From the NCBI RefSeq assembly GCF_000189635.1, contig NW_002476254.1, positions 310,001 through 374,000 on the forward strand: a stretch of 64,000 bases of DNA, read 5' to 3'. The translations under genes were made by a program, and so were the position numbers. This DNA comes from Tetrahymena thermophila SB210. Lineage: Eukaryota; Ciliophora; Oligohymenophorea; Hymenostomatida; Tetrahymenidae. How positions within the stretch are numbered: position 1 is the stretch's first letter; each line of letters begins with the position of its first letter. Shown here piece by piece: positions 1-63,000 of this stretch. The notes beneath the pieces were generated by a model. That model did not search any database, had not been told where the DNA came from, and saw nothing but the letters and a program-made list of their open reading frames with translations.

Positions 1-629
1 ATTTTAAATTATCAGTTTTCTGCCTATTTTGCCTTTTAAGATTTTTACATTTTAATTTTGCCTCCAAATTATTGTTTAATTAATCAATTATTACTATCAA
101 CTATAATGAAAGCTAAATTATTTCACTAAATATTTTAAATCAACATTCACATTAAGCAAGCAAAGTAAATGAATTTACAATAAAAATTTCACCATTGAAA
201 ATAGATAAAAATATCACTTTACAAAAAAAATAATTATTATTTTTTATTATTTAATAAATCATATCAAAATTTTGAAAAAACTAAGTATGCATCGTATTCT
301 AAATAGACAAAAGTTCAATTAAAAAATTAACATTTGAGATATATAAAATATTTTAATTTTTTTAAATATATTGAATTAAATATTTTAAAAAATAATAATA
401 ATTTTAAAAATTTATATAAATAGATGTAGAGTCATTGAAAACAAAAATGAGTCCCATAATTTAACCTCAAAAGGTAAATTCATTGAAACACTAATCTAAA
501 TTAATATTTATTTTATTTTAGTAAAATGATTAAAAGTTAGCTAAGCTAAAAGACTAAGATAAATATCAAAATGCGTCTTTAAAAGTAGATTAATAAGATA
601 TTAATTCTACCTTGAAAGGAGATAATATT
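1..629. other. Intergenic, AT-rich; upstream of the cyclin gene
   Basis: No coding frame with family resemblance was found on either strand. The stretch is low-complexity A+T with homopolymer runs. The last ~30 bases lead into an AAGGAGATAATATT context just before the first ATG of the next gene, and the cyclin promoter and 5' leader must lie here. No TATA-like or binding motif stands out from the background. Confidence 0.6.
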
Positions 630-3600
630 ATGAAAAATAATAAATTTCAAAATTACTCTATATTAGCTGATGAAATTCAGTAAAACTTGAACTTATAGAA
701 TCGAAGAGTTTCTGCCCTTCTTAATAATGATAATACCTAGAATTATTTGAATTTAACTGAAAATTAAAGCTATTAAAGCACGAATAGAAGTTTAAATAAT
801 AAACATACTTCTATAAATACTAATTACGATTAATAGCCTTGTAATGCAAACATATATAGCGTTCCATCAAATAATAGCAGTGTTATTAATAAATCTAACT
901 CCACTTCGTTTCATCAAAGTAATCTACAATAAGGATAACAATAAAAAGAGTTAGTTAATACTTTCACTAATATTAATAATGGATAAGGTTCATAATAAAA
1001 TTCAACTACTAATTTGTCATATAATCACTCTATTAATAATAATTAATATTAAACAAGCTCAAACTAAACTTCTATCATGCATAATTCCATTAGCCAAGCA
1101 AACCCTTCCTTCTAAACCAGAGCAAATAATAAGAATGATTCATAGACTAACGAGAATAATTTTTAAATACAGTAAAATATTAGTTTGAATAGTAAAATAT
1201 AAAATATTCTGTCTCATGAGACAAAAAGTAACTTAGTGAGTAAAAATACTACAATATAGTATAATAACCCATTAAATCCTAACAACTAAGGATAATCACT
1301 ATCCTCTCATCCTACTTATAGAGAGAAAGAATTTAACATTGTGTAAGATTATAATCCAAAATCAATGATTGAAAAGCGTAGAAAATCTCATAGCATAGCC
1401 AATAACATTATTAATAGTAATTCCCGCAATTTAAAACAAGCAATAATTTAATCAACCTTATAGTAAGCTTAAGCATAAGAATTATCTTAGAATAATTCTC
1501 ATTTACAAAGCACAAATTCGATGATTAACTAAAATTTACCCTAGAATAGCTCTTAGATTATAAGTTATAATAACTAAAATTTCAGTTAATAAACTACAAC
1601 AAATAAATCTAATTCTAATAATCCAATTAAAACTTAAAATGGCCAATAGAATTTACAAACTAACATGATTTTATAGAACGTATCTTAAATAGGAAATAAT
1701 TTTGGATTAGCTCCTTCTAGTTAACATACTCCAACAAGTATTAGTCCTATAAATTACATGCAAAGCTAAAGTAATTATAGCAGTAATAGTAATTTAAATA
1801 ATGGATGTAGTAGTGGATCAAAGTAAAATATCTGTAATTAGCAACCTATCTTAAATTAGGCTAATGTTAGTTCAGGTACTTAAGATTAATCAAAATTAAG
1901 TGTAAATAAAGTGAATCTAACATTTGCAGAACAATTAAAAATTGAAAAACAAAAGAAACTGAAAGAACCAACTCTCAATATATTAAATTTAGGCATAAAC
2001 AGTGAAAGAAATAGCAAATAAAATTTTGTTTCTAATACAGCAAATAACAGCTATAGTTACTGCAGCAATAACAGCAACAATACTTCAGCTATAAGTACTC
2101 CTTATGCTATTACAAATGCTGTAGATACCACACAGAAGAGCAATATCATTTCTAATAACACAATAAATTCTAATAATAAAGCCAATAAAAATAGTTATGT
2201 AAACGAGCCAATGATTTACTCAGGTAAAAATTCAAACAGCTCGAGTCTATAAAACACATATGTTAAAAACAATAACGAATTTTAATAGAGTTATACCAAA
2301 CCATATGATAACTATACAAACCCTAACTCAAATAGAGTTAATTTACCTTCAAATTCCATTCATACAAATTAAGAACCATATAGTAGAGAAATGCAATAAA
2401 TAAATGAACTTTTATAATAAGCAAAATATATAGCACCATCCAACACATCTAATGATTCAAAATATTATACACTTTAATACAATAAATTAAATAATTTTGA
2501 ATCTGACTTCTTATTACCAACCAGTGCACCTGCATAGTAAATAAATAGTCTTGCATTCAAAGATTTGGTTAATTAAAAACCTAATGACATACCATAAATT
2601 ACAAGGACAAATAGTATAATCAGCAATAAAAAGAGTAGCCCTTCAATTATAGATTAGCAAAATATAAATCAATTAAAGCAAACAGCTAAACCTTGCATAA
2701 ATAATACTAAATCAGGAGAATATGATTTAATTCAATAGAGCTTAACTATAAATAAAGAGTAAGAATATTCTAGTAACAGCTTAAAAGAAAAGGCTTAACA
2801 ACCTTAGCTATCAGGAAAGTAATTGATACTTAATAATAATATTTCAAATAATAGTTCAATTAACCAAGAAAAAATATTTTCTACAGGTGAAATCATCTAA
2901 TAATATGACAGCAGTAAAAATCTAAGCTAAAATCAAATCAATAAAATTAAAAATGAGCAAATTAGTTAAATAAATATTGACAAAAATTTTAATGAAAAAC
3001 CATCTCAAAATGATAAAAAATAATAAATGTAGAATGTCAAATCAATCTAGCAATAATAATAGTAGTGTTAGCAACCTGTAAAGTGGTACCTCTATGATTC
3101 ATAGGCCTAGTTTGAAGAGCAAGATAATCTTAATAATTTTAATAGTTATGGAATGCAGCAAAAATAGTAAGTTGCTAAAACTAAAGACCAAATATATCAA
3201 AAGTAAAATAAAGCAAACGTTACAGAAACTTTCCCTGATAATAAGCATTTTTTAAATTCAGAATCTTCTAGTTTAACTCAAATATCAACCTACAGAGAAG
3301 AGAGTTCTAAGTGCATTACAAATGATTCATAATTTAATAATTTCAATAATCATTAAGGAAAATAGGTAAATGATATTTAATATTAGGAATTCAATTACTA
3401 GGGTTAATTATAAAGCACAAAACAAGCAAAAGATTTTACAATTAAAGAAACAAACATGAATTAGCCTTATCAGCTTTGCTAAAAAACAACAAATACTAAT
3501 ACAAAATTAGAAAACTGCTCAATCCTTAATAATATAAACGAAATAAAAGATTCATATCATATGGATTTTGAAGATCTTGCAAAATATTTTAGTTAAAATA

Positions 3601-6174
3601 ACGGAACAAAGCCTTCTAATAACACTCCATCATCAGAAAAACAAAAATAAATTTAATCTCAGTTAAAATTAGAAAGCGAAGAGTACAAAAATTTGTGTTC
3701 ATCAATAGAATCTCTTCGTCTTCTAAATACAAAAGATGATCCCTTTATAAAAATTCAAAACCAAGAAGATTTCTCGGAAATTTAAAAATTAGCTTTAAAA
3801 GGCAGCACTACTGATGATAACTTTAGCAACACGAATAAAAATTCAATTATTTATAAAAATAGAGAGAAATTACAAGATGATATTTCTGAAGCTATAGAAT
3901 CAGATAGTAGTTTAAATAAAATTAAGAGTTAGTAAAACCATTTTATAGATGAACCATATTCTATCAACCAGCAAGAGTTTTATAGTTAATCTAATTTAAA
4001 TTTGAAATAAAAAAATTTGAATGGTTTTGAAGGTCTTTATTCAATAGAGGAGGGTGAGTATGAGTTAAAATCTAACCCATATTATGATTAAGATTCTTAA
4101 AATAGCTCTTAATTTAGCTTAAAGGCTGTAGAAGAAGAGTTAGATGATGAAGAAAAATCACAAAGATTAAAATAAAGTTCATAAAATAACTCATAGGAAA
4201 GTATAAACTCAAATAAATAATCAGATTCATAAGAAAAAGCTAATATTTCTTAGCAGTTGAAAGAAAAAGAGGAAGAAGAAAGTATAGAAGATCCTCAACT
4301 CATGTGTGATGAGGAATAAATTTATGAAATGATGAATAGCAATATTTCTAATATCCTTGACCAAATAAATAATGACGATCCAAACCAAGCCTTCTACTCT
4401 AATAATTACTATGATTAACCATGCTTTAATATTGAGTCATACAGCAATTTTAAAATAATTCCTTAGTCTTACAGCAATGCTCCCTCTAATTAGTAATATT
4501 TATTTTTTAATTAAAAGAAAATTTATTTTATTTATTCAAATTTATATATCAAAAAATAAATTAAAATTTTTTAATTTAAAAAGAAAATAAGAAAATGAAA
4601 CAAATTACTCTTCAAACCCAATGGTTGCTCCTTTTGTAGATGTGCCTTAATACGATCAAAAGTATCATAATAGCTAGAATAAGAATCTTTCAGAGATTGC
4701 AAGCAAGTCACATAATATAGATCCTAAGGAAAACTAAAAAGAAAATTAAAAGAAAGTAGAGAGTAAATAACTGGAAAAAGATGAAAAACCTGTTTAAGAG
4801 GAAAACTAGAAAAAAGCTAATAAATCTATCAGCGCTTTAGGAACCAATCATTAAATTTAATAGAAAAAAACAGAAGAGAACTTATCTAAAGAATAAAAAT
4901 TAGCTTTATTGAAAGAATAACTAGCAAACTTTGATAAAATATAAAACTAGTTCCCTATTTTCGGAGGAGAACATCTTGCCTACCTACTCTCTAGAGAATC
5001 AGATTATTAACCAAATCCGTTTTATATGAAGCATTAGAGGTAATTCAGTCCAAACATGAGAGCAATTCTATTGGATTGGATGATGGAAGTTAGTGAAGAG
5101 TTTGGCTTAAAAAGAGAAACTTATTACATTGCTGTAAACTTAGTGGACAGAATGTTTTCTTGTAAACATAATTTACAAATAAAAGAATTTTAGTTGATTG
5201 GTGTTACTTCTCTACATATTGCTTCTAAATTAGAGGTAATCAATAATTTAAAACATTTTACTTAAGTTAAACTCAAATAAAATTAATTATTTGTTGGTTT
5301 ATTAAATACAATTAACAATTTAATAATTATATAATAAAGGAAATTTATCCAAAAAGAGTGGAATAATTTATTTTATCAACTGATAATGGATATACAGCAC
5401 AACTAGTCTTTGAAACTGAAAAAAATATATTATAGGTAAAATTTTACAATTAATTTAATAAGATTTAAACATTTATAAAACAAACATTTATTAGAAACTT
5501 AATTTTATGGTAAATCCTCCTACGGTTTCGTTCTGGGGTAACTGGTTCATGTCTTAATGGGATATTTTTATTCAAACTTCTGAAAAAGCATAAAATAGTA
5601 AATTAGTCCTATAATTTTATGAAAACAATAGCTGCTTTGTGCAGTTTAGATAAGCTACCAACTAGTCCTATGAGTTGTTTAGAGAATACATGTAAATTAT
5701 GGACTTCTCTATTTTAGATGTACAAACTCTCTAAATAAGTGCTACCAAATTACACTGCAGTATTATGTATCTTGTTTTAGGAAAAGCTCATGGAGTATAC
5801 ACTTTAGATGACATATAAAATGAGGTAGCATAAGGATTCATTTTTACAAAAAAAGCCTAGGATTTCAACGATATTTACAATGAATTTGCAAGTGTTTCAT
5901 TTGGAATAAATATTTAAAATATTGTCACTTGCATTTAATATATCTCAAAGTTCTTTGTACTACCTGTGACCAATGCTTTACCATTTATTATCTCTGAAAT
6001 GAAAGAGCCTCTTCAAGTAAATAATAAATTTATACTATATTAATGAAATTAATTTAATTTATTGTAATTAAATAGGGAAATTATGAAGATTTTCTTTAAT
6101 ACTAAACTCATAATAAAAATTAAATAGAAAAAATAAAAAACATAATTTAAAAAGTGTATAAAATAAATGGATGA
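630..6174 (+). CDS. Cyclin with a ~1,300-residue Asn/Gln/Ser-rich N-terminal extension
   Basis: Predicted to encode about 1,743 residues in five exons: 630-4492, 4584-5235, 5340-5435, 5495-6016 and 6076-6174 (TGA stop). Introns of 91, 104, 59 and 59 nt all have GTAA/GTAA-like donors and AG acceptors, and the phases agree. The cyclin box starts near residue 1,425; MRAILLDWMMEV at about 1446 is the A/B/E-type helix-1 signature, followed by LVDRMF and SLHIASKLEEIYP. A second cyclin fold fills about 1540-1740 (LNFMVNPPTVSFW). By family it should activate a cyclin-dependent kinase in the cell cycle. Residues 1-1288 are dominated by Asn, Ser and Gln, with an acidic stretch near 1165. The long first exon would otherwise end at TGA 4596-4598, only 22 bp before the next in-frame ATG (4621). 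Splicing 4493-4583 instead carries it exactly into the cyclin frame, so I prefer one gene. The alternative is two genes, one ending at 4598 and one starting at 4621. The cyclin identity is secure; the single-gene model is probable. Confidence 0.82.
4493..4583 (+). other. Key intron joining the Q/N-rich exon to the cyclin exons
   Basis: This 91-nt stretch starts GTAATATTT and ends TTTAAAAAG, and its interior is almost G-free, like the other introns in this window. Exon 1 ends after two bases of a codon and the next exon supplies the third, giving a CAA/TAA-type Gln codon and then the cyclin frame. No other nearby AG restores the frame: the next one, at 4590-4591, leads to TGA within two codons. 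Confidence 0.7.
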
Positions 6175-8759
6175 AAAAATAAATGTATAACCAATAAAAA
6201 AATAGACAAATACAAACTAAAAATAATAAAAGACAAAATTAATTAATAAAATAGACGAGCTACACAAGTCTTATGCTTTAGAAGTCAATTATAAAATTTA
6301 TTGATTAACTACATTTTGTGAATGAATGAATAAATTTATTTATTTATTAGTGGCTTTTAAATAAAAAAAACCAATAAACAACCTATAAATTAACTAAATA
6401 ATAATAATCACTCAAAATAATTAAAATTATATTAAAAGAAATATATATATTTATATAGTATTTATATTATTAACATTTTAATGTATAATCTAACATTGAT
6501 TCTTTAAATTTATTATCATATACTTGTTTGAAAAACTCAATTACTTATACTAATTATAATTATACAGTTATTGATTATATAAATTTGCTTACATGTTATC
6601 TTAATTACTTTTAAAAATATTAATTTAAATTGCAAAATCTTTTATGAGTAAATCTTTAAAAATGATTTAGATAAATTAAATTCAGCTTTATCATAAATAT
6701 TGTTTGGAACAAATAGTCAGTTATCATCTAAGTTAAATATCATAAAGGGAACGACTTTCTTATTGCGTTTTAATACTCTAATTAACGAAGTAAAGCAGTA
6801 ATTTTTTAGTAATATTCATCGTAGTAATATTACTTGTTAAAAATTAAACCTTTAACTTTTTTTAAAGTTAGCTAGAACAAATTAAGTTAACTTCAATGAA
6901 TTTTCATAGTATTTATTATTTGACTTTATATATTAAAGCAAGAATGTAAAAAAATATTTGTATAAAACTACTTTAATTATATTAATTAAAGATTAATAGG
7001 GTAAATATAATTAACTAAAGCTAAAAAAAAGCAATAAATAAATAATTAAAATACTATATAAAAATGTTTGAAAAACGAAATTATTAGGTTCAGCATCAGT
7101 TATTACAAATAAAATATTTAAGATAAAAATAATTAATTTTACAATTAATTTTATTTATAATGAATGAATGATATTTGCTTCATGAAAAGACTAATTTTAT
7201 TACATTTTTACTCTAATAATTTTGAAAGATATAATTTTATTTATTTTTTTAACTAGAAAAAATGTGAGTTTTCTATCTTAATATTTAATTAGAACAAAAA
7301 AAATATATTTGAAGTTTTTGCCTGATTTCAATCAGAAAAATTCTTCTAACAGCTTCATAATGATAAGATGTATTTGGTAATATAAGCAATTATACTACTT
7401 TATGTAAGAAAAAATTTAAGCAATTTTTTAGTAATAGTTTCACATTCCACTAAAAATTGTAAAAAAATGTAATTATTTTCTATCAAAAACTTGGTTCTAT
7501 AAAATCATAGCTCAATTTTAGAAATTAATTTGTGTTTAGTAGTTACTTTAATTTCTGATATATTTATAATCCAAATTTATCAAATCAATTTCGATGTTTT
7601 ATCGATCAATTAAATTAGTACTATTTATTTGTAATCACTAATTATTACTAACTTAATTACACCTTTAAAAAAAAATTTGAGGTAATTATACCCGTTATTT
7701 AACTATTCATATACCCTTACTGAATTTAATTCACATTATTCTACTAAATCCTAATAAATACTTTTCATGATTACTATTTACAAAAGCCTAATATCTTTGA
7801 ATGACATATAACACCTCTCATTTTTGAATTAGTTATAGTCTTTATAAATTCAGCCATTTAATTTTTGAAGATTTATTTTATTTTTTACTACCACTATTTT
7901 TAATTTAACTAAATTCTCTTAATAAGAATGATCTGTCTGCAATTATTTTTTTGCCTATCCTAAAATTATTATAGAAAAATACTATACAAACAAATTTTTG
8001 TAGATAAGTTACCATTTTTAGAATAAATATTTATTTAGTAAATTTGATGGCCTAAAAATTTAAAAATAATTTAAATAAAATTTTGAATGTACTTTTTGAT
8101 AAGGATATTGTTTTAACTTTAATTCTTACTAAATATGTAAAAAAGTCGAATGTGTTTTGATACTTATTTTTTTTCATAATAAAATTTTGAATGTACTTTT
8201 TGATAAGGATATTGTTTTAACTTTAATTCTTACTAAATATGTAGAAAAGTTGAATGTGTTTTGATAGTTATTTTTGTTTTATCATTTTACAATAAAAAAC
8301 AAATAATGATTTTTTTATTTTAAATCGTATTAGAGTAAAATAAAATTAGAAATTAAAAAAATAAATTATTTTTTTTAAAAATGAAAATTTGAAAAAAAAG
8401 CTTGCTAAAAAAACAACTTTATGATAGAAATACAATTAATAAAAAATAAATTACAAATAAATAAAGATTTTTTGATTATGAATTAATATTTAAATATAAA
8501 TAAAATATTTTTTTTTAATGAATTAATATTTATTATTTTAATTTTTAGTTGAATGAAACAATAGAAAAATATTTAAAATTATATATTTTTTAAAAATGTT
8601 TGATTAATAAAAAAATTTCAAATTTTAATACAAAAAATATATTCGAGAGGTTTATCTTTCTATCTATCTATCAATCTTAAAGAATCAAAAAACCAAAAAA
8701 AAAATATTTAGAATAAAGAAAGACCCTTTAAAAAGTAATATAAACAAAAAGGTATTAAA
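6175..8759. other. Intergenic, AT-rich, with one tandem duplication
   Basis: Apart from the 104-bp duplication listed separately and a short TATC run near 8655-8670, I see only low-complexity A+T sequence. No conserved protein motif was found in either orientation. Frames free of TGA occur but have no recognisable content and very low G+C. Confidence 0.6.
8074..8281 (+). repeat. Two-copy direct tandem repeat, 104-bp period
   Basis: The unit containing TTTTGAATGTACTTTTTGAT and TTAATTCTTACTAAATATGT occurs at about 8074-8177 and again, directly abutting, at about 8178-8281. Only a handful of substitutions separate the copies (for example AAAAGTCG versus GAAAAGTTG). It lies in intergenic DNA. 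The near identity points to a recent local duplication. Confidence 0.9.
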
Positions 8760-42871: not shown

Positions 42872-45800
42872 ATGAATAATTCGATATACAAGTTTCAACC
42901 TTCCTCCAACTATCCTGATATAATAAACAGAAATAGCGTGATATTATCAAGAGAAAAAAACAAAAGTTTGAGTGTTAAAAATCGTTAAAAAAATAACTCT
43001 TGCTAATTGAATAATGGATTATCAAATCTTTCAAGCCAAAATGAAGTGGTAAATTCACCATAAAAGGACTTAATTAATATATTTAGGTAAGAGGAAGGTT
43101 AATAAGGATCAGATTAAAATTTATAAAATAAACATACTCCTCCAATAAGCCAGTAGCAAAATGATTAAGTTGATTAAAATAAAAAACAGAATCCTAATCA
43201 ACCAAATATTAATGGTTAAAAAAATAATTCAGTTGATTAAACAAGCAAAACTAAGATTAAAAAGCTATTTATTCCACAAAATTTAAATAGGTTTTAATAG
43301 TTTCCTTAAAACAATTACTACTTTAAGTCTGTTAAAAACACGCCCTAAACAAGTTAAGACAAAAGGAATTTCTATTTCGATTATAAAAGTAAATCAGAAA
43401 TCAAAAAATCTTTAATAAGTTCTTAAAGTGATTTCAACTCAAAGAATTAATATTAAAAATTAAATAGCATGCTCAACTCTCCTTTGTACAGTGATGTCTC
43501 AACGCCTAAATGGCAATAAAATTAAATTAATAGCTAGCTAATGACAAATAATCATTCTGATTCTTTTTATTCATAAAAACAAAGCTATGAATTAATAAAA
43601 AATCAAAACATAAAAATGCAACAAAGTAAATAAATACAACTTACACAATACTTATATTTTAATTTACTTTATAGAAACTAGATAAATTAGATGTTTATTT
43701 TAATTTCTTTATTTTTTAAATAAATAAAGATTATGAGTAAATCAAGAACTAAATATTATAGACTCTTGTCTTACTTGAAGAAGAATTGAGAAGTACTGGA
43801 AAAAAAGAAGCTGATTTTAAAAAGCCAATGGAAATAGTCCACTAACTTACTGACCTATTAAGCGAATCTGCTAAGAATGAACTAAAGCTCTCATTAATAA
43901 ACTCTAAATAATAAGAAAAGTAAGAGTAAATATCATTCTTTAAAATGTAAATAGAAAGTTTATAAGCCTAGTTGCATCATGTATAAATAGAAAATAGATA
44001 GCTACTTTAAATGAAAAAAGACAATGAAATAGAAATTAATAAGCTTAATAGAAAAATTTTATAATAGGAAAAGTAAATGAAGGTTGATAAAAAAGCAATA
44101 AAATAGCTAGAATAAAGATTAGAACTAATTTTAGATACTAATTTTGTTGAGTATGCAAATGAAAGAGCAGCTGCAAGCAATATCAATTCGCCCACAATAA
44201 AAGGTGCTAATAATTAGTAATAACCAAATCATGCAAATAATTAAGTATAGATCTAATAAACAAGTAGTAATTCTCAAAATTCACTTCATAATCTTCGTAT
44301 CCTACTATCAGATTTAGTTAAAGATAATGAGAGCTTAAAAAAAGATAATGTGGCTTTAGAAATAGATATCCTAAGATTGAATGAAAACGAATTGAAACTA
44401 AATAAAAAAATAGCAACACTCACCCAAAAAGTAGAAAGCATGAAAAAAAAAATATCTGCAAAAGATCTGGAATAGCTTTAGCAAGAAGAAAATAGTAATT
44501 AAAATAGTTAAAAGTAGGCATTCTAAGAGTAAAACTCCTTAAATCTACTCAAACGTATGATTATTCCATCAGATACGGATTTTAGAATAAATTGCTTAAA
44601 ATTTGAATATTCTCAAATTCTTGTAATTTTTATCATTTTTTTGTTTTAAATAGATTTCCAATTAGAATTTTTTCTAATCTTTAGATAAATATTTTTTTAA
44701 ATAATAAAACAGAATTAAATTAATTTAAATTATATTTTTTATATTATTATTTAAATATTTTTAATAGATGGATATTATTGAGCATGGATCAAATAACTTT
44801 GCTATTCACATCAGCAGAAACAAAAATATGGAGAAAAGAAATAAATTAGTATCATTAATGGCTAATTAATTTGTTTCATATAGAGACTTTACAAATAGGT
44901 TAGCCCAGTTAGTGAAATTGATTCATGAATTTGATCATTTTGATGATCTAAATAAAATTTAGTAGAGTGTGGCTGCTCAATTTCCTAACTTATTTAAATC
45001 TGAGATTGTCAGGTTATGGATTTTAGAATCTATTTCAGGTGTTATGTATTCTTATGATCAAGAACTAAAAAAATAAAATTGTCTTCCTGCTAAAGGTAAA
45101 AAAAATAAAATAAATACATATTCTAAAACTTATTTTTTAAAATTTTTTTATAGGCATTTTCTAGGATATTATTAGGGGAAAGCTGCCAATAAATATGAAA
45201 AACTAAATTTCAAATAGATATATTTACATTTAATTGAAAGATAATGATGATGATCTAGTTATCTAGCATAATTAAGTTTAAAGTTTAGCTAATTCCTAAT
45301 AAGGTTAGCAAGTAACGTAATTGAGTTACTTATCATCTTTCTGTTTGCCAATTATTATTGATAATGATGTTATTGGAATTTTAGAAATATCTGACAATAG
45401 CAAAGTGGAAGGGTTTGGATATGATGAAGAGTTATATGGTGTCGTATGTGCTAACTATTTGAGTTAAATGATAAAAAAAATAAAAATAAATAGAGAATCA
45501 AAAATTTAATTAAAATATAATGATATGCTGAATGATTATTTCTTATAGTGCTTAGAATCTGAAAATCTCATTTCTTTAGAAAAAAAAGTTCATTCTTAGG
45601 TTAAAGAGTTATTTGGGGTTGAAATTTGTAAATTTTATTTTGTAAAAGAAGCTGCTTAGATAAAATAAACAAAGTAAATTTCATAACCTACGGATTTATA
45701 AGCAAATTTCTCTTCTTTTTTTTCTCTTGTAACTAATTAAGCCTACAGCTATAAAAAAGGTGTAATTGGAGAAGCAATCACTTCAATGAAACCAATTTTA

Positions 45801-46109
45801 ATTAACTCAATGCAAAGTTCTACCATTTATGATCCTTTTGTCGATTTGAATACTCTTCTACCAGCATACACAACACCTCTATTTATTAATATAGAGAAAG
45901 ACAATACAGTAGAGTGTGTAGGAGTTTTATAAGTTCCTCTTAAAAAAAGGACAAGAATAGCTAAAGAAAAAGATTAACTACTACTAGGAACAACTCCAAA
46001 TATAGGTATAGATCATTCTATGGAAAATTAGATTAAATATTATGCTTCTTTATTAGCCTATGCTATCAAATTGATTAAGCTAAAATGTGAAATAAAAGAA
46101 AATAAATGA
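42872..46109 (+). CDS. Coiled-coil protein with GAF-like domains
   Basis: Four exons: 42872-43625, 43730-44622, 44768-45095 and 45154-46109 (TGA); 976 residues. Introns of 104, 145 and 58 nt have consistent phases (1, 0, 1). Residues 1-250 are Asn/Gln/Ser-rich and probably disordered. Residues ~253-545 form coiled-coil segments (LQTLVLLEEELRSTGKKEAD; LRILLSDLVKDNESLKKDN). Residues ~550-660 form a helical region (FAIHISRNKNMEKRNK, RLWILESISGVMYSY). Two GAF-like modules follow: ~700-780 (SFCLPIIIDNDVIGILEISD, a typical strand-turn-strand) and ~800-960 (KKGVIGEAITSMKPILINSM, ECVGVLQVPL, a closing helix). GAF domains bind small ligands such as cyclic nucleotides or mediate dimers; ligand residues cannot be assigned here. 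Exon 3 starts with an in-frame ATG, so two separate genes are conceivable, but the 145-nt spacer and matching phase favour one. Confidence 0.78.
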
Positions 46110-48195: not shown

Positions 48196-50148
48196 ATGAA
48201 TATTCTTAATACAGAAGTAGTTCATATTATTGAAGAACACCATGATGCCAAAGAAGCAGTTCTAACTTTTGAAAAGTTAGAGCTAACATATACACCCTAA
48301 AAATACAAACATACAAATAAATCAGAATTACCCACCTCCAACCCATATAAAAGAGTTATATTAAATAACTTAAGCGGATACTTTGGAAAAGGGTTAAATG
48401 CTATCCTAGGAAGCTCTGGTGCTGGAAAAACTTCATTTTTAAACATTTTAGCTAAGAGAATACAGTAAATAAATACTCAAAATAATTATATTTTTCTAAT
48501 ATTATTTCTAAATATAGAAACACAAAAGAAATCTAACTAACTGGAAGCGTTAAAGTAAATGGAGCATAATACACATATGAATATTTCAATAAATTTGCAG
48601 GTTATGTTATGTAAGATGACTATCTTTTACCTACTCTTACAGTTAAAGAATACTTTTAATTCGCTGCTGATTTAAGACTCACTTGCTCAGAAGAAGAAAA
48701 GAAGACTAAAGTTAATTAAATTATAAAGCAATTGAATTTAGGGCGTTGCTAAAACTCAAGAATTGGTGATATATTATCAAAAGGAATTTCAGGTAAATAA
48801 ATTTTAATTTAGTAAATAAATAGCTAAATATTTTACTTTTTAAATAGGCGGAGAAAGAAAAAGAGTTTCTATTGGTCTTGAATTGCTCGGAGAACCTTAA
48901 GTTCTCTTTTTAGATGAACCCACAAGCGGTCTAGATTCTTTCACTTCTTATCTTATCATAAAAAACTTAAAGGATCTATCGATTTAATTTAACAAAACTA
49001 TAGTGTTTACTATTCACTAACCTTCCTCTGATATTTGGAATTTATTTGATAAGATTACTCTATTGGCAGAAGGTCAATTCATTTATCAAGGTCCACGCGA
49101 ATAGATTATTAATTATTTCTCAAAAATTGGATTCGCTTGTCCTGTTTACAACAACCCTGCTGATTATCTCATGGCTCAAATGAGTACTTCGGATAAAAGT
49201 AAAATTCAGTTGATGATTTCTGAGTGCAGTAAAAATATCATTCCAGAAATTGAGCATGAAATGCAAGTTATTTATACTACACATTCATAACCTGTCATTA
49301 CTTAAAGTAGAATAATTATAGACGATAATCAAAATTAAAATAAAGTAGGTGCTTTTTATATGCTTTAAAAGCTTATACAAAGATAATTAAAATAATTAAG
49401 CAGAAATAGAATCATGGTTAATACACGTTTCATATAAATTTGTACAATGGGTTTATTTACAGGAATTCTGTTCTGGCAAACCAGCGATGCTGACACATAT
49501 TAAGATACATATTAAAAAGCTAAAATTCTATATATTTTTAATCTTGGTATGTTTGCTCAAAGCATGAATCCTTAAGTTATAAGTTTTGTACAAGAACGTC
49601 CAGTTTTCCTTAAAGAAGAAGGTTCAAATCTTTATACTGCTTGGTCATATTTCCTATCTAAGGTCCTCCTAGAAATTATATCTTGCTCATTATTTGCTTG
49701 CTTCAACTCCTGCATTATTTACTGGATGGTTGGATTTTCTCAAACTGCTTATTAGTTCTTCTTCTTTATGTTAATTTTAGTATTATAGTCCAACATAGGT
49801 AATGCTTTTGGTATACTTGCAGGCTCTCTTTTTAAGTAGGCAAAAGTTGGAATGGCCTTTTCTTTAACTTTCATAGCACCATAAATTCTATTTGGAGGTG
49901 TATTTAAGAATAGAAAAGATCTTCCTGATTGGATTGGATGGGCATAATACATGACTCCAACAATGTATGCTTTTGATGCAATGGTCTAAAATGAATTTGC
50001 TGATACTAATTACACTTATAATCCTATTGAATACCTTAGTCTTGATATTAATAAATGGACCTGCGTTGGAATAATGATAGCTTTATACTTTATCTACACA
50101 GCCATAGCTTATGTATGTCTTCTCCTCAAAAGAGAGAGACTTTAATGA
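48196..50148 (+). CDS. ABCG-family half-size ABC transporter
   Basis: Three exons: 48196-48464, 48518-48792 and 48848-50148 (TGA); introns of 53 and 55 nt; 614 residues, typical for the White/ABCG half-transporter type. Domain order is nucleotide-binding domain then membrane domain, the reverse layout that defines ABCG. Motifs: Walker A GSSGAGKTS at 72-80, Q-loop VMQDDYLLPTLTVKE, signature ISGGERKRVSIG around 180-191 (intron 2 splits it), Walker B VLFLDEPTSGLDS at 200-212, H-loop TIHQPSS with His238. The C-terminal ~250 residues hold about six hydrophobic helices, with NTRFIQICTMGLFTGILFW, FLSKVLLEIISCSLFACF and a final YFIYTAIAYVCLLLKRE. Members dimerise and export lipids, sterols or xenobiotics across membranes; the substrate cannot be told from sequence. 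All catalytic residues are present, so it should be active. A ~160-bp degenerate duplication lies just downstream. Confidence 0.95.
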
Positions 50149-53530: not shown

Positions 53531-54518
53531 TTATAAGATTTAACGTATTAATAGAACTATATTATGTTTGAATTTTTGATAATTTATTGCAGTTAATACT
53601 TTTCTAAGATTTATTTAAAAGAAATTTTGTTTCAAAGCCTAATAATTAACAATTTAAAGAATTCTAATTAATATAAAAAAGCTTTTAATATTGAATTAGT
53701 TAAGAAACTCTATAAAATAGCTCAAATTTATATAATTAAATATTTTAAAAAATATTTTTATAAATTAATTTATTTTATTTACTAAGATTTATAATATTTT
53801 ATTATTTATTTTTAAATTTGTCTTATTAATCCTGTCTTTAAAAAATGATTTATTTTAAGACGTTTTTTAAAATATATTGAAGACGAATGAATGACTAATT
53901 ATATTGTATTATTTTACTTTGCAAGTAAAAAACAATTTAAAAAAATCTAATAAATTATATCTAATTAAGATTTATTCCAAAAAAATTAATTTATACAATT
54001 CAATTTTAAAACAAACTTCAAAATAATTACATTTTTTTGGAGAATATTCTATATTTATATTTTTTTTGTAATTTTAAATCATTATTTGAAATATGGATTT
54101 TAACTGATTGTATTTATGATGATGAATATGAATATATTTTAATTTTAGATTACTGTTTTAATGAATATTTTAATATATTTCAAATAGGATTTTTTTAATA
54201 AAAAATTATATATTATTTCGAGCTAATAATCAATAGGTTTAATAATTACACAATTTCCAGTGAGATTGAACATTAAAATTTATTATATTTGGCTTCTTTC
54301 AGTGAAGAATTCTGAAGTAAAGTATACATTTAATAATTTATGGTTCTATTTTAATAACAATTGCAAAAATCTTTACCAGCCAGCCAATGAAAGCTCAGGA
54401 TATACAAACCATGCAAAAATTAAATAAATAGTAAGAAAAATTCATTTATTCAAATTTATGAATTTTAGAACGATATTTACTTTAATAATTTTTAAATTAA
54501 AAATAATAAAATATCTCA
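53531..54518. other. Intergenic between divergent genes
   Basis: Serves as the common upstream region of the minus-strand NT-C2 gene and the plus-strand Asn/Gln/Ser-rich gene. It holds a second copy of GCCAGCCAGCCAAT-like sequence (54375-54388, first base differs) seen in the DHHC intron. No gene supported. Confidence 0.55.
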
Positions 54519-56874
54519 ATGAGTTAAAGTGTTGTCCATTCAAGATAGCAATCAAAAAATCAAAAATAGCTCTAAACACTAAAAAAGGAAAAATCTAAAG
54601 GAGATTTGGATAGCAGAGATCTTTGCTACTCTCCACAAAACAAATGCTACTCTTTAATTAAAAGATTTCATAAAAAGTAACCAGATAATTTTGAAAATTC
54701 ACACTTAAAGTATTTGCAGAATGGAATCAAAGATATAAGTAAAAGAAATATTAATTTTTAGATGAAAGCTAATGAAAGTAATTAAATCTAACACTAAGAT
54801 AGAATAAATTTGCACAAAAGATTTACAGATCCTTATTTGAAGGAAGAATATATAGAATAGCATCTTAGCGACAATAGTAAAAGCAGGTTAAAAGATTAAT
54901 ATGTGAACTCTAATTTAATATAATAAAAGTAAAATGCCAATTAATATTATCCAAAATAAGGATCTGTGAAGCCAATAAGGACTATTTGTTTGAATTTATA
55001 TGAAACATAAGAACAGTAAGATTAAAGTTTTTAATTAAGTAACAGAAGAGATACATAATAATAGGAAAGTATACTATAATCCAGTAACTTAGAGTTAAGT
55101 CAATTAAACAAAAGCGTTTAAAACCAGCAAATTATAAGTAACCAATAAATCAATTTGGGGAAAGTGTAATTTATAACTAATTCATCCACAACTTAACTAT
55201 CTAACTCAACAAGGTTTAGTCCAAGGTAGGGTATAAATTTTATCTCTTAAAATAGTTAATAGAGTATTAAGTAATGTTCGAAAGAGTAATCAGAAAATAC
55301 TATAGCTTGTGGTAATTTATTTGGTTTTCCTGAGAGCAGTGAATCAGATTTGAATTAAAACGACTCAACAATTACAACACCAACAAAATACTAATAATTT
55401 TATGAAGGATAATACAATTTAGGTAAAAACCTACCTCAGCATTCTAAACCTTAGCAAAAAAATTAGCCTAATGTTCAATCTAATTCTTCTTTTAATAAGA
55501 ATAATTATCAAATATCTACAACACCAAAAATTTTGAAAAAAAATAATCAGTAAATACAAGATAAATCCACAAACTAAAGTTCTTAGAAAGAAAAGTGTCA
55601 TTTAGCGAATAATTCTGAACATTCAATTAATGCTAATAACAGTCTCAATTCATCAAAAGTAAATCTATGCTTTTATTTGAAGGGGACTGGAGGAAAATAA
55701 GTATGCTCTCCTAATTAATTTTCACTAATAAACAGTAATATAAATTCAAGAAAAAGCTCAAATTAAATAAATAGCTGCGATTCTCATTAAATTTTTGGGG
55801 TTAACCTGATAATACAAGATAATGTTAAAGAAAATAAGTGTAAAAATTAAATGAAGAATTCAAGGAAAAATAGCTTGAGTAAAAATAAAAGTAATATAAC
55901 TTATTCAAATGATCTTCAAGGAACTCCAAAATAATCCCCAAATTAAATGAACAAATAATAACAATAGTAAAATGGTATTCCTCTTATAACAAAATTTAAT
56001 AAAAATAACTAATACTCTTAACATACTTCATTCACATAATTACAAAATAAAATAAAATCGTTCGAAGTTTAACCTGAAGAGTTTATAACAAGTAAAAATA
56101 GCTAATAGACTTAAATTAATTAAAATGGCTAGAAAAATTTAAATTCTAGTAAAATTCTTTCAGCGACAAATTAACAGTAAACCAACATAACTAATGTAAA
56201 TTATACTTAAATAAACTTAAAGACACCTGATAGTCTCATCCAGTCATGCAATATGAATGCATAAAGAATAACACATTTTCCAAATCTTGAACAAAATTAT
56301 TAAAATGTAATTATAAATCTTTAATTCATTAATTTCAATATTTAAATGAATTTTCTTTTTTATTAAAAAGCTTAAAAAAGATGTTAGAGAAAGAGATAGG
56401 AGTTAAACATATACATTAGATAGTTAAATAAGGTAAAGATCAGCATCAAGGGGACATATATAAATTTAAAATAGTAAACCTTCAACACAGAATTCTCAAT
56501 AATTATTAAATAAAAGTTAATTAAAATTAAACTAATCAAGCAGTTAACTAAATTTATCAACAGCAAACAGGACTACTTCTTAGTCTATCATTCCTTCCTA
56601 GTATAGTGCTTTTAACTTTCAGCCATCATTCTTTACTCCTATAGATAATGATTCTCTACAAGGATTTATATAAAAATAAACAACAAGAAATAATTCTCAA
56701 GTTAATGAATAAAATTAATAGCAAAGCTAATAATTCTTTACAAAACAAAAATCTTGCACTCAATTTGAACTATAAACAATTACAAGTTTTGTTTAGTTAG
56801 AAGAAGAGATAGAAAAGAATGCTAAGCAATAGTAAATATTAGAATAGCAAAAGAAGGCTAAATACCTCTTTTGA
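54519..56874 (+). CDS. 763-residue Asn/Gln/Ser-rich protein, unrecognised
   Basis: Two exons, 54519-56306 and 56371-56874 (TGA), with a 64-nt phase-0 intron (GTAATTATAA...TTAAAAAG). The N-terminal ~120 residues are more ordered and basic (SLIKRFHKKQPDNFENSHLK, FTDPYLKEEYIE). The remainder is low complexity, dominated by Asn, Gln, Ser and Thr with short repeated Pro/Thr pieces (STITTPTKY, TTPKILKKNN). It ends with a compact predicted helix (FVQLEEEIEKNAKQQQILEQ) followed by a basic end. More than a hundred TAA/TAG Gln codons occur. No catalytic motif, membrane helix or signal peptide was seen. The composition resembles prion-like or scaffold proteins, but function is unknown. Reading the intron through would also stay open for a while before a TGA; the spliced frame is preferred because it reaches the well-formed C-terminal helix. 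Confidence 0.72.
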
Positions 56875-58380: not shown

Positions 58381-59685
58381 TCATTTTTCTTTAGATCTTC
58401 CAAATTAAATCTTAGATTCAATCATATCAAGCTTGCTTTTGAGAAATTTAAGATGTGCCTCAGTATTAGTTTGATTTTATGAAATTAAATTCTTTCTTAC
58501 TGGCTAAAATTGCTTTTCAAATAGATAAAGGTTATTAAAGCTTTTACGGTGCTTGATGAAATGGTATAAAATATAAGCTTCACTTCCTAACCCTAGAACA
58601 TAACTAACAGGTTCTGCAAAATCCCAACCATAAAGTCCATAAGTTAAATAAAATAGGAAACCAAATTAGACTACTTATAATCCTATCAATTATTTGACTT
58701 TAGAAAGAGATTTAGCTCTAGATTCATCTTCAATTTTTTGCAATATGTCTTATCCTTCCTGATATTGCTAACGAAGAGCATTAGCAAATAAGGTATTTTT
58801 CTCAAAGCTGCTAGAAAAATTGTATTCAGAGAATGTTTGAATAGCCTTTTATAGAGCGTCATTCATTTATTTTTCAGAATAAGCTTACGATGAAGGATTT
58901 TATTTCTCTAGTATTTGCTTAAAGTTCTTTAATAATAAAAAATAATTTTAAAATATTTTTTTTTAATTTTAAAATCGTTTTTGATAGAAATTTTTCATAA
59001 AATAAATTTTTTACAAAACATTTTAGTTTATATTTAAGTTAAAATTAAATTTTAACAGTTTTCCATTAAAAATAGCGTTTTTTATAAAAAAAATCTTATT
59101 ATTTAATATTTTTTTCTTTTTGAATTCATTTTCAAAATAAATAAATACCTTAATAAATGATTGAATAACTTGTGCGTCTTAATAAGGAACTTCATGCTAA
59201 GCTAATTCTCCCTCTAACTTTGTTGATTCAAAGTAATTAGCTGTATTTAGTTAATCTGCGAATTCAAAAGTTGTTTAAACATCATCAATAATAATCTTCA
59301 AATCATTATTTATTGATAAATTTAAGAACAATTACTCTTCTTTGTTTTCTATTTCTTAATCACCAACTAAAAACTTTACATTTTTGATATCAGGATTATC
59401 ATCTTTCAATAAGTTTTCGATTTGCTTAAGATTTTAATTTTAATTTACTATAAACTATTTAGCTTAATCCTAGGAGAAATATAAGTCCATCTTTACTTTT
59501 AAAACTATTAATATTTAAAAAATCATCAATAAGTAGATAGTAATGTAAATCGATTTTAAACTATAAAGAAAGAACTACCTACCTTCACGAGTTAGAGAAC
59601 TAAACTTATAGTATTTACTATTACAAAAACTCTTTGGTATTTTCTAAGTGAGCTTCAAAAGTGAATTCATTGAAGATACAAACAT
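58381..59685 (-). CDS. MCU: Mitochondrial calcium uniporter pore subunit (MCU family)
   Basis: Three exons on the minus strand: 59685-59583, 59495-59149 and 58926-58381 (TGA), 331 residues; introns of 87 and 222 nt, phases 1 and 0. The first ~34 residues are basic, Ser-rich and acid-poor (MFVSSMNSLLKLTQKIPKSF), as expected of a mitochondrial presequence. Residues ~35-150 fit the matrix N-terminal domain. A coiled coil follows (~195-228), then membrane helix 1 at ~230-248 (LIGLQVVQFGFLFYLTYG), the pore motif W251-D-F-A-E-P256, helix 2 (VSYVLGLGSEAYILYHFIKH) and a C-terminal coil (HLKFLKSKLDMIESKI). By family the Asp and Glu of the W-D-x-x-E-P-(V/I) motif line the Ca2+ filter of this inner-membrane channel. 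Here the usual W-D-I-M-E-P reads WDFAEP; both acids are kept. The 34-codon first exon rests on phase and composition and is the least certain part. Confidence 0.9.
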
Positions 59686-60005
59686 ATGCAATAATTATAT
59701 TTTTAGTGTATGAATTTTATTTTTTAATTTTTTTTAATTTGTAATGAATTTTATAATATAGATTCAAATCTCTATCTATGCATTATAAATTTGCTTATTT
59801 AAATATGAAAATAACTATTTAGCTAACAAAAAAACATTAAATATTGTAATAATAAAGTTATGATTATCTAAAATTTTATATTTATAACAACAGATATTTT
59901 TATTTTAAATAAATAAATTTTTTGATAAAAAAATAAGTTTTACATAAATCAATGTATCATCATAACACTATAATAATCCTATGATTTTTACTATTAAAAA
60001 TGTAC
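59686..60005. other. Intergenic spacer between two minus-strand genes
   Basis: About 320 bp of AT-rich DNA that should contain the MCU promoter and leader and the 3' end of the K+ channel gene. No motif stands out. Confidence 0.6.
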
Positions 60006-63000
60006 TCACCACTTTTTATTAATGTAGCTAGCCCAGCAGTTACTTGAATTTAACTCAATATTCTATGATATAGGAATTTTAGAATCTTCAATATTTTCGC
60101 ATATATTTTCAGAAAGATCTATCGTTTGCTTTGACCCTTATTTTGAACTTAGAAGATTTTTTTACTCAGCTGATTAGGCTTTACTCATATTGTTAAATTA
60201 AGAAAGGAGTACCTGGTTATCAACTTTTTTCCATTACTTTGCATCAACATCGACACTTATTGATTTACGTTTCATTTATTTTAATTTTTAAGCATGATCA
60301 CTTAATAGATCAGTTGTTTAAAAATTTTGCTTTTACTCGTTTTAACTATTATTTTACTTTCTAAAAACAATAAATTTATCATTAATGCTTTGATGGGTGA
60401 ACTTAAGTGCTGCTAATTATTAATTCTATTCTTATATTGTTGGGATTATTACAGTATTACCTTTACGTTAGCCCCTTATTATTGCAGGTATTGCTGGGAA
60501 ATGTAAACTACCCTCATCTCTTGTAATACTCTCTTCAATACCTTACTTTCCCACATAATTTAAATTAATTAAAACATCTTACACTTTTCTCTCATTTGCA
60601 TTTTGGTAAGCTACTTAAGTTATACGTTTATTTGCTATAGTTTAATCTTTATTTTTAGGATTGTTTCTTCTAGTACTAAGCGTATTACGACGATTTTGTT
60701 ATATTATTTCTGAAGAATTTACTGATAATCCATTATCTAAATTAATTTGCTAAAGGACACTGTCAGCATTCCAATCAGGAAAATAATAAATAAATATCTT
60801 CATTTTACAATCATCTTCATAAGCTTCATCTATCTAATTATTATTTAATTTTTGTAGAAGTATCATTTTATCACCTTGTTCCAGCTATTAAGCTTAATTC
60901 TAAGGAATTTATTTATTTCTTGATTATTATGTAGCTTATTTAAGTAAATCATTAGTAGTAATCGTTTAAGATTTACCATAATTTGAAAACAAATCTGGCT
61001 ATTGCTGTAATTGTTGTGATTGAATAGGATTGAAAGGAAAATTTATATTCAAATTATTTTAAACACTATGCTGGTTGTTGTTAGATACTCTCCTCTTTAA
61101 GATATTTTGTTATAAATTATTACTATTACTTGCCTAGTTCTATGCATAGCTGCTATTTGACTACTAAAGATTATTTTAAAGGATTTATAGTATTTACTGC
61201 ATTTACTAATTTATTGATTGCTGTTATATTTAAAAAAGTTAAAGTATTTGTTATTATTATTTATGAATAGATTGTTGTCTTAAAAACTGCTATTATGGTT
61301 ACTGATTTTAGGCCTATGAATTAACATTAGATATACCTCCTAATTAAGTAGTACTTGCTTGCTTTTGACCTTATTATTATAGAAATTATGTGCTTTGCTA
61401 GTTTATCATAGATTATATCTTATCCATGTCAGATATAGATATACAGGAGTTTTCTAAAGATTTTTTTTTATGCTTAAAAGGTTACAAAAATGAGTTTAAA
61501 CTTAAATCTTATTAATCATTCGTATAAACATTAATATGAACAGATGTAAGTTAATCAGTAAATATGCTAGGATTTTGCTTAATCGAGTTTTCTAGTTAAT
61601 TTGAATTTTACTTTTAGTAATTAGGCTGTGCCTACTGTAAAGCATTACTATTTAAATCATCAGTTTAAGTACTTGAAGGGTTTTTGATTTTAGTTAAACT
61701 AGATGTCCTAGATTTTTTATTTTAGTTAATGAACAGAGTGCTTGGCTTGTTGGTATTATTGTTTTGTAGTTAATTAGCTATTTTTTCACTTATATCTTTC
61801 GTTTTTTAGTCTGGGATATATACAAGTGATTATATAATTTATTTACCTTGGTCTAAAGGAACTAAACCTATTTTATTTTCTTAGTTATGTCTCTTTTTTA
61901 TTGAAGATTCATCTAAAACACTTATAGATAATTATTAATCATTCTTCTTTTATAGGTCTTAAAGCAACGAAATTCTATCGTTAGATTCTTGATATTGATT
62001 TTCGTCTAATTCTTCATCTTCTTCATCGTCATCATCTTCTAAACTTTCGAACCAGCTATCGAATTAACTAATAAAAAGCTAATGATAAGCTTATATGTAA
62101 AATAATTAATTCTATATAAAATTATTTGCAGCATTTTCATTCATCAAAGGGCGCTATTTTTTTCTTTTTCTGATGAAATCAATAGCTCTTATTTATTTCA
62201 TGTCCCTTTAACTTAACTCAATCTTTATTTATTTTATTAATTAATAGTAAACATATTTTATTTCAACAAATAAGCTTACTTTATCAACTACGAGGTGTAT
62301 TTTAGGACAATCAGTTATTAAATGGTCATTGTATTAACAGCAGTAGCAATCACTGTGAACTTACTAGTAGAGATAACCTGTAAAAAGGTTATCACATATA
62401 GTGCAGAATATTTCATAATCTTATTAATACTCTGTATTTAAAAGTTAAATGTTAGATGAAAAAAAAATTAGGAGTTTTTTTGTTTACATTTTATTAATTT
62501 TATAAACGGTCCTCTTTCTATGTAAAGCAGGCTTGTAAAACCAGCGCTTTTAATTGAAAGTTATCTTGGTTGCCCGGTAAAAAAACTATAAAAACCAAAA
62601 GTATCACCTTTAGTCAATTCTCTAAACTCAACACTTGTATCATTTTTTCCTTAATTATTTGTTTGACCTTAAAAGTACATAATTACCTGTTTATAATAAA
62701 CTCTTTTTATAATTTTATTAGGAAAATAAACAATTTACACTTCCTTATTCTACAAAAAATATTGAACTATCATCAACATCACCTTAAAATGTTATAATTT
62801 CATCCGGATAACATCTGTATTCTTTTAAATAAAAATAGATAAAATGTGAAAATTAAATAACTACTTATTCATTCATTACCTTTTATTAAAGTAGAAGCTT
62901 TTTAAAGAAATTCATCTGTAAAATTTTGTCTAAAAATAGGACATTAGTTCAAGACTTTTCTTGTCGCTTATATTTATAGTTTTTACTTTAATCCTTCAGA

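Follow-up and report, generated by a model that had tools for sequence, protein, structure and literature searches.

The DNA window analysed here is a 64,000-nt stretch of the Tetrahymena thermophila SB210 genome (G000:C255:310001-374000 in our own-genome searches, which covered 101 Mb in 445 contigs), and its feature of interest is a predicted plus-strand cyclin gene with a 3.86-kb exon rich in codons for asparagine (N), glutamine (Q), and serine (S). A telomerase reverse transcriptase (TERT) fragment in this assembly matches that of PDB 6d6v, a T. thermophila structure, at 106 of 106 residues. We consider it very likely that one gene encodes both a giant N/Q/S-rich N-terminal extension and a cyclin, a judgement that covers the one-gene structure and the cyclin identity jointly. 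The predicted features are listed in Table 1.

Gene model and cyclin module

Translated with the ciliate code, in which TGA is the sole stop, the five exons of the original prediction (from ATG 630) gave 1,743 residues with a single TGA, at the end; the long frame was open only with TAA and TAG read as Gln. There was no TGA in 1,407 codons of the giant exon frame. The other two forward frames contained 22 and 48, the three reverse frames 15, 24, and 47, and a chance origin of the upstream open reading frame (ORF) was rejected on this count. Over 630-4492, the coding score was +272 nats in frame and -167 to -419 nats in the five other frames. All 13 bins of the giant exon were positive (+14.3 to +33.8 nats), and 522-629 scored +5.4 nats. 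With its single end stop and a giant exon coding beyond chance, the original observation of a 3.86-kb exon with a predicted splice onto a cyclin was confirmed.

Exon boundaries were further evaluated with a simple in-house gene finder trained on the window and 20 fetched cyclin loci with the test gene left out; its margins are relative. In the first training round of an earlier version, the non-coding set consisted of complete sequences that still contained the test gene; this region was excluded from later rounds. The gene finder preferred a start at ATG 447 over ATG 630. The start contexts are AAAA and TATT, respectively, and the frame stays open if 474-521 is retained. ATG 447 may be an alternative upstream start giving a protein of 1,788 aa, with ATG 630 still a candidate. 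Exon 2 scored +3.5 nats over 4584-4620 and +48.2 nats over 4621-5235. At the 3′ end, 6076-6171 scored slightly negative (-1.9 nats) and the gene finder preferred 6128-6304; the originally predicted last exon is nevertheless favoured because its tail resembles those of two paralogues, L016 and L020 (see below).

Table 1. Predicted features of the giant cyclin gene (window coordinates; percentiles are relative to trained splice sites)
Feature	Position	Strand	Remarks
Possible first coding exon, MSPIIQPQK	447-473	+	27 nt; chosen by gene finder (447-473 + 522-4492)
Possible 48-nt intron, GT..AG	474-521	+	Donor 96th, acceptor 8th percentile
Giant N/Q/S-rich exon	522-4492	+	630-4492 = 1,288 residues from ATG 630
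Acidic C-terminal part of extension	3630-4492	+	About residues 1001-1288; D+E 18-19 per 100
91-nt intron, extension to cyclin frame (predicted)	4493-4583	+	94.5% A+T; chosen ab initio
Exon 2, linker rich in K/E plus beginning of cyclin box	4584-5235	+	Coding score +3.5 nats (4584-4620) and +48.2 nats (4621-5235)
ATG for a separate cyclin; internal Met if one gene	4621-4623	+	Context CCCA
Tandem KEN, KENQKEN, candidate APC/C degron	4726-4746	+	Residues 1336-1342 in the model from ATG 630
Cyclin_N match, genomic frame, continuing in exon 3 after splicing	4975-5262	+	89 bits unspliced
Intron inside cyclin box	5236-5339	+	Donor 97th, acceptor 86th percentile; alignment of spliced product with cyclin A2 spans the junction
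Exon 3, 96 nt	5340-5435	+	Same-length exon in same place in L019, L020, and L021 models
Intron	5436-5494	+	Donor 59th, acceptor 12th percentile; alignment of spliced product with cyclin A2 spans the junction
Exon 4, cyclin C-lobe region	5495-6016	+	Coding score +27.7 nats
Intron	6017-6075	+	Donor 87th, acceptor 61st percentile
Last exon with TGA, tail NYEDFLQYQ	6076-6174	+	Tail resembles L016 and L020

The spliced product generated a Cyclin_N hit of 132.6 bits in Pfam (cut-off 23), and its best solved relative was cyclin A2 (PDB 6sg4, E 1.3e-27). Like cyclins A/E/B, it carries the Cyclin_N box, MRAILLDW, and ASKLEEIYP; the K of ASKLEE and the E of ETEKNIL align with those of cyclin A2 at the interface with the cyclin-dependent kinase (CDK). 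Unlike them, it has about 1,300-1,400 extra N-terminal residues and generated no Cyclin_C match in Pfam at E ≤ 1, though a coding C-lobe region is present. The aligned K and E presumably serve in kinase binding. Given the box, its MRAIL motif, and the conserved interface residues, the last ~325 residues would form a module of the cyclin A/E/B type, expected to bind a CDK and activate it.

Cyclin paralogues and the one-gene question

The search of the genome returned at least 25 Cyclin_N matches in 22 places by our own count, 21 of which were examined (20 fetched loci plus the window; the place on C129 was left out). At two of the fetched loci, a giant chain lies in the same frame as the cyclin box. 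L016 (C398) has 1,136 codons without TGA upstream in the box frame (1,073 from the first Met, N+Q 36%), and L020 (C174) has 1,410 (1,270 from the first Met, N+Q 31%), neither with a splice between chain and box. Because TGA is the sole stop and none is present, no separate gene can end inside these frames. A giant N-terminus thus occurs at no fewer than three of the 21 loci, counting the window. The next longest upstream open frames were 521 codons (L019) and 459 codons (L021); L027, with 1,063 residues before the box according to the gene finder and 339 in the box frame, was not counted as giant. These paralogues, with chain and box in one frame, are the strongest support for reading the window locus as one gene.

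The three giant loci share further traits with one another or with other cyclins, where paralogue boundaries are gene-finder predictions. A C-terminal [NS]YE[DE][FY]L motif is common to the window protein (NYEDFLQYQ), L016 (SYEEYLSYQ), and L020 (SYEEFLSFQ), and the 96-nt exon in the box is common to the window, L019, L020, and L021. L020 further resembles the window gene in a KEN pair; L016 differs from it in having no KEN and, judged by its reading frame, no first intron of the box, and the chains of both L016 and L020 differ from that of the window in bearing no detectable similarity to it. A tree was built from 16 of the 21 loci, omitting L024 (anchor not found) and L026, L027, L028, and L030 (boxes look distant). 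This tree is weak, with one of its 13 inner branches starred. The window grouped weakly with L016, L020, L021, and L029 (60/68), and a clade of the window, L016, and L020 was neither shown nor rejected (p-AU, the P value of the approximately unbiased test, 0.269). The window gene appears to resemble a group of T. thermophila cyclins that have intron positions in common, and at least three of these have giant N-termini.

Within the window, the gene finder joined 4492 to 4584 unprompted. The same join was chosen by two earlier versions, replaced for scant non-coding training or over-long introns; one replaced version missed exon 3 and extended the gene to 8712. In the alternative, an N/Q-rich gene would end at TGA 4596-4598 and a neighbouring gene for a cyclin of normal size would begin at ATG 4621; we regard this as very unlikely. 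The upstream frame does reach that TGA. The read-through from 4493 to 4595, however, scored -14.1 nats as protein, and even the best two-gene model splices 4493 to 4591, removing most of that stretch; this model lay 14.6 nats below the one-gene model, and 10.6-14.6 nats below it across all eight parameter settings. It had been argued originally that the intron brings the giant exon precisely into the cyclin frame. The join is open, and 4493-4583 has the best splice score of its kind, but 12 of the 54 GT-AG pairs in the stretch join the frames without a stop, so that frame-joining is weak evidence alone and was rejected as a proof by itself. The donor at 4493 is also weak (12th percentile of trained donors; the 4583 acceptor is at the 58th), which, with the frequency of chance joining, speaks for two genes.

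With two genes, the 22 bp between TGA and ATG would have to accommodate the 3′ end of the first together with the promoter and 5′ untranslated region (UTR) of the second. PMC3274533 gives 0.75 Mb of 5′ UTR and 1.34 Mb of 3′ UTR over 6,633 genes, totals called likely underestimates there; by our own division, the mean UTRs are ~113 nt (5′) and ~202 nt (3′). All 53 gaps between neighbouring genes were at least 169 bp in our own predictions (not annotated genes), and the original argument from the 22-bp gap held up well. The CCCA context at ATG 4621 is poor compared with the A-rich context of predicted starts, and the two paralogues of the same build have chain and box in one frame.

A single gene could also act as a developmental switch with two products, the giant cyclin and a short one transcribed from a promoter located in exon 1 or in the intron. 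Translation from ATG 4621 would yield a cyclin of 443 residues that includes the whole box, and 23 of 26 T. thermophila cyclin homologues are reported to peak at particular conjugation times (PMC4818844). We found no positive evidence for such a switch, its start codon is the one in the poor context just described, and we regard it as very unlikely. A single gene for a cyclin with a huge N/Q/S-rich N-terminus, as first proposed, is supported by the spliced frame, the gene finder, and the one-frame paralogues.

Another cyclin locus, L022 (G000:C262), has on its minus strand (3018-3665 and 4107-4595) a CDK-like kinase end and a cyclin box in one open exon frame. Pkinase scored 107 bits in the preceding exon, and a weak kinase end (19 bits) and Cyclin_N (48 bits) were found in the next. 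Kinase-cyclin fusions, including a T. thermophila relative, have already been reported (PMC3019232); L022 may or may not be that gene.

Composition and possible roles of the N/Q/S-rich chain

Exon 1 (1,288 residues) contains 17.0% N, 13.5% S, and 12.7% Q. Composition per 100 residues shows N/Q/S-richness over the first 1,000 residues, where charge starts low and then increases. An acidic part follows at residues 1,001-1,300, and after it come 100 residues with much D/E as well as much K/R. An 80-residue stretch with at least 30 N+Q was counted as N/Q-rich; the window cyclin reached a maximum of 37/80, with 523 residues covered, and is thus prion-like by composition. For comparison, 65 proteins of at least 150 residues were sampled, centred on cyclin loci. 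N/Q-rich stretches occurred in 25 of them, and the three giant cyclins ranked first to third by N/Q-covered residues (1,054, 1,005, and 523, the last being the window), a ranking biased because the sample is centred on cyclin loci.

The extension generated no Pfam match at E ≤ 1, so its identity as a known domain is unsupported. The same applies to a repeat array, as one minor 57-bp array (2038-2094) was the only one present, and to a copied genomic element, as the own-genome search, which scored only the best candidates, returned only the extension itself. In blast against the other 20 cyclin models, the extension showed no similarity (best E 0.28-0.33). Because neither similarity to other extensions nor genome copies were found, no conserved function can be demonstrated in the chain. 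The first ~1,300-1,400 residues form a non-conserved, very probably disordered chain that is rich in N/Q/S, becomes acidic at its end, and is followed by a linker rich in K/E.

Such a chain could position or tune the kinase through spacing, weak multivalent contacts, or stability, which we infer with less assurance than the one-gene structure. A different view, which we hold possible while giving it less than even weight, is that the extension arose by drift in a high-A+T genome with TAA and TAG as Gln and is tolerated as padding, doing little more than affecting solubility or expression level. The N/Q-rich stretches in 25 of the 65 sampled proteins and the dissimilarity of the extensions to each other fit padding, as does the report in PMC10942620 that Q-rich proteins are expanded in ciliates with this code and that N-terminal Q-rich segments increase protein levels in yeast. 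First to third rank among 65 proteins would be odd for pure padding, with the reservation about sampling given above. The original suggestion that the N/Q-rich chain drives condensates, here taken further to a gathering of the kinase at one place, draws on composition and length only. Many of the sampled proteins have a comparable composition, and we think the idea unlikely.

The region had also been called unusual for a cyclin. This holds in part, and is tempered by the presence of a giant N-terminus at three or more of the 21 loci, by the N/Q-rich stretches of the sampled proteins, and by a precedent in mammals. Mammalian cyclin B3 is described as about threefold larger than its orthologues through one enormous exon (PMC11811201, citing Lozano et al. 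2012). The window gene is like it in being a cyclin enlarged by one enormous exon and unlike it in lineage, which is unrelated, and in its N/Q/S-rich chain, the likeness being one of description and not of sequence comparison. In T. thermophila, CYC2 and CYC17 have four polyglutamine/asparagine tracts each, as stated in PMC10942620, and the window gene is possibly one of the two. No description of giant Tetrahymena cyclins was found in the literature searched, parts of papers included, though the gene may well be annotated in the public genome.

Candidate degradation signals and significance

The KEN box is a signal for degradation by the anaphase-promoting complex/cyclosome (APC/C). In the window protein, KEN is found at residues 1336 and 1340, within the K/E-rich linker of exon 2 and 82 residues ahead of the box; L020 carries KEN at 1730 and 1735, 115 residues ahead of its box. 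A tandem KEN occurred in two of the 65 sampled proteins, both of them giant cyclins (window and L020). Its P value was 0.005 in the window and 0.0035 in L020 by whole-region shuffling, and 0.0032 (shuffling 100 residues) and 0.00035, respectively, by local shuffling. L020 had five KEN in total (1.22 expected, P 0.01). The D-box pattern RxxLxx[ILVM]x[NDEQ] had no occurrence before the box in the window protein. The KEN pair before the box may let APC/C remove the giant cyclin, and as a candidate degron it is a modest, post hoc lead. The timed degradation originally suggested for the prion-like region retains this modest lead, in the K/E-rich linker of exon 2 and not in the N/Q-rich part.

In L021 (G000:C443), a D-box-like RVLLGEITQ is present at model residue 260 (P 0.05 by shuffle), and 18 S/T-Q pairs precede the box (9.0 expected).

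Several observations weigh against the interpretation given here. The splice from 4492 to 4584 is a prediction from sequence, and its donor is the weak one noted above. The Cyclin_C match is missing, and the grouping of the window with other cyclins in the tree is weak. The extension resembles none of the other cyclin models and, within the sensitivity of the own-genome search, matched only itself. The KEN motif was noticed first and tested afterwards, the number of single KEN in the window protein is as expected (2 vs 1.21, P 0.34), and L016 has no KEN.

The giant cyclins might use their N/Q-rich chains of >1,000 residues as scaffolds that, by weak multivalent contacts, concentrate a CDK at one nucleus or cortical site, with release by APC/C through the KEN pair in two of the three; we put this forward as a long shot. 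If true, it would describe a cyclin carrying its own localisation scaffold. Should the three giant cyclins be confirmed as protein, they would be paralogues for probing the effect of an outsized disordered region on a cyclin, in a cell that is amenable to genetics and has nuclei of two kinds, and they would parallel, in an unrelated lineage, the single-exon enlargement of mammalian cyclin B3. Judged from sequence, the finding is real but modest within a proteome that is itself N/Q-rich.

Elsewhere in the window, two long ORFs, 60009-62603 (minus strand, 865 aa) and 54462-56648 (plus strand, 729 aa), had no Pfam match at E ≤ 0.001, and 44922-46106 (plus strand) had a weak GAF match below the cut-off. 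The ORF at 58384-59763 (minus strand) is mitochondrial calcium uniporter-like (49.9 bits), and that at 48736-50145 (plus strand) matched an ABC-2 transporter (143 bits).

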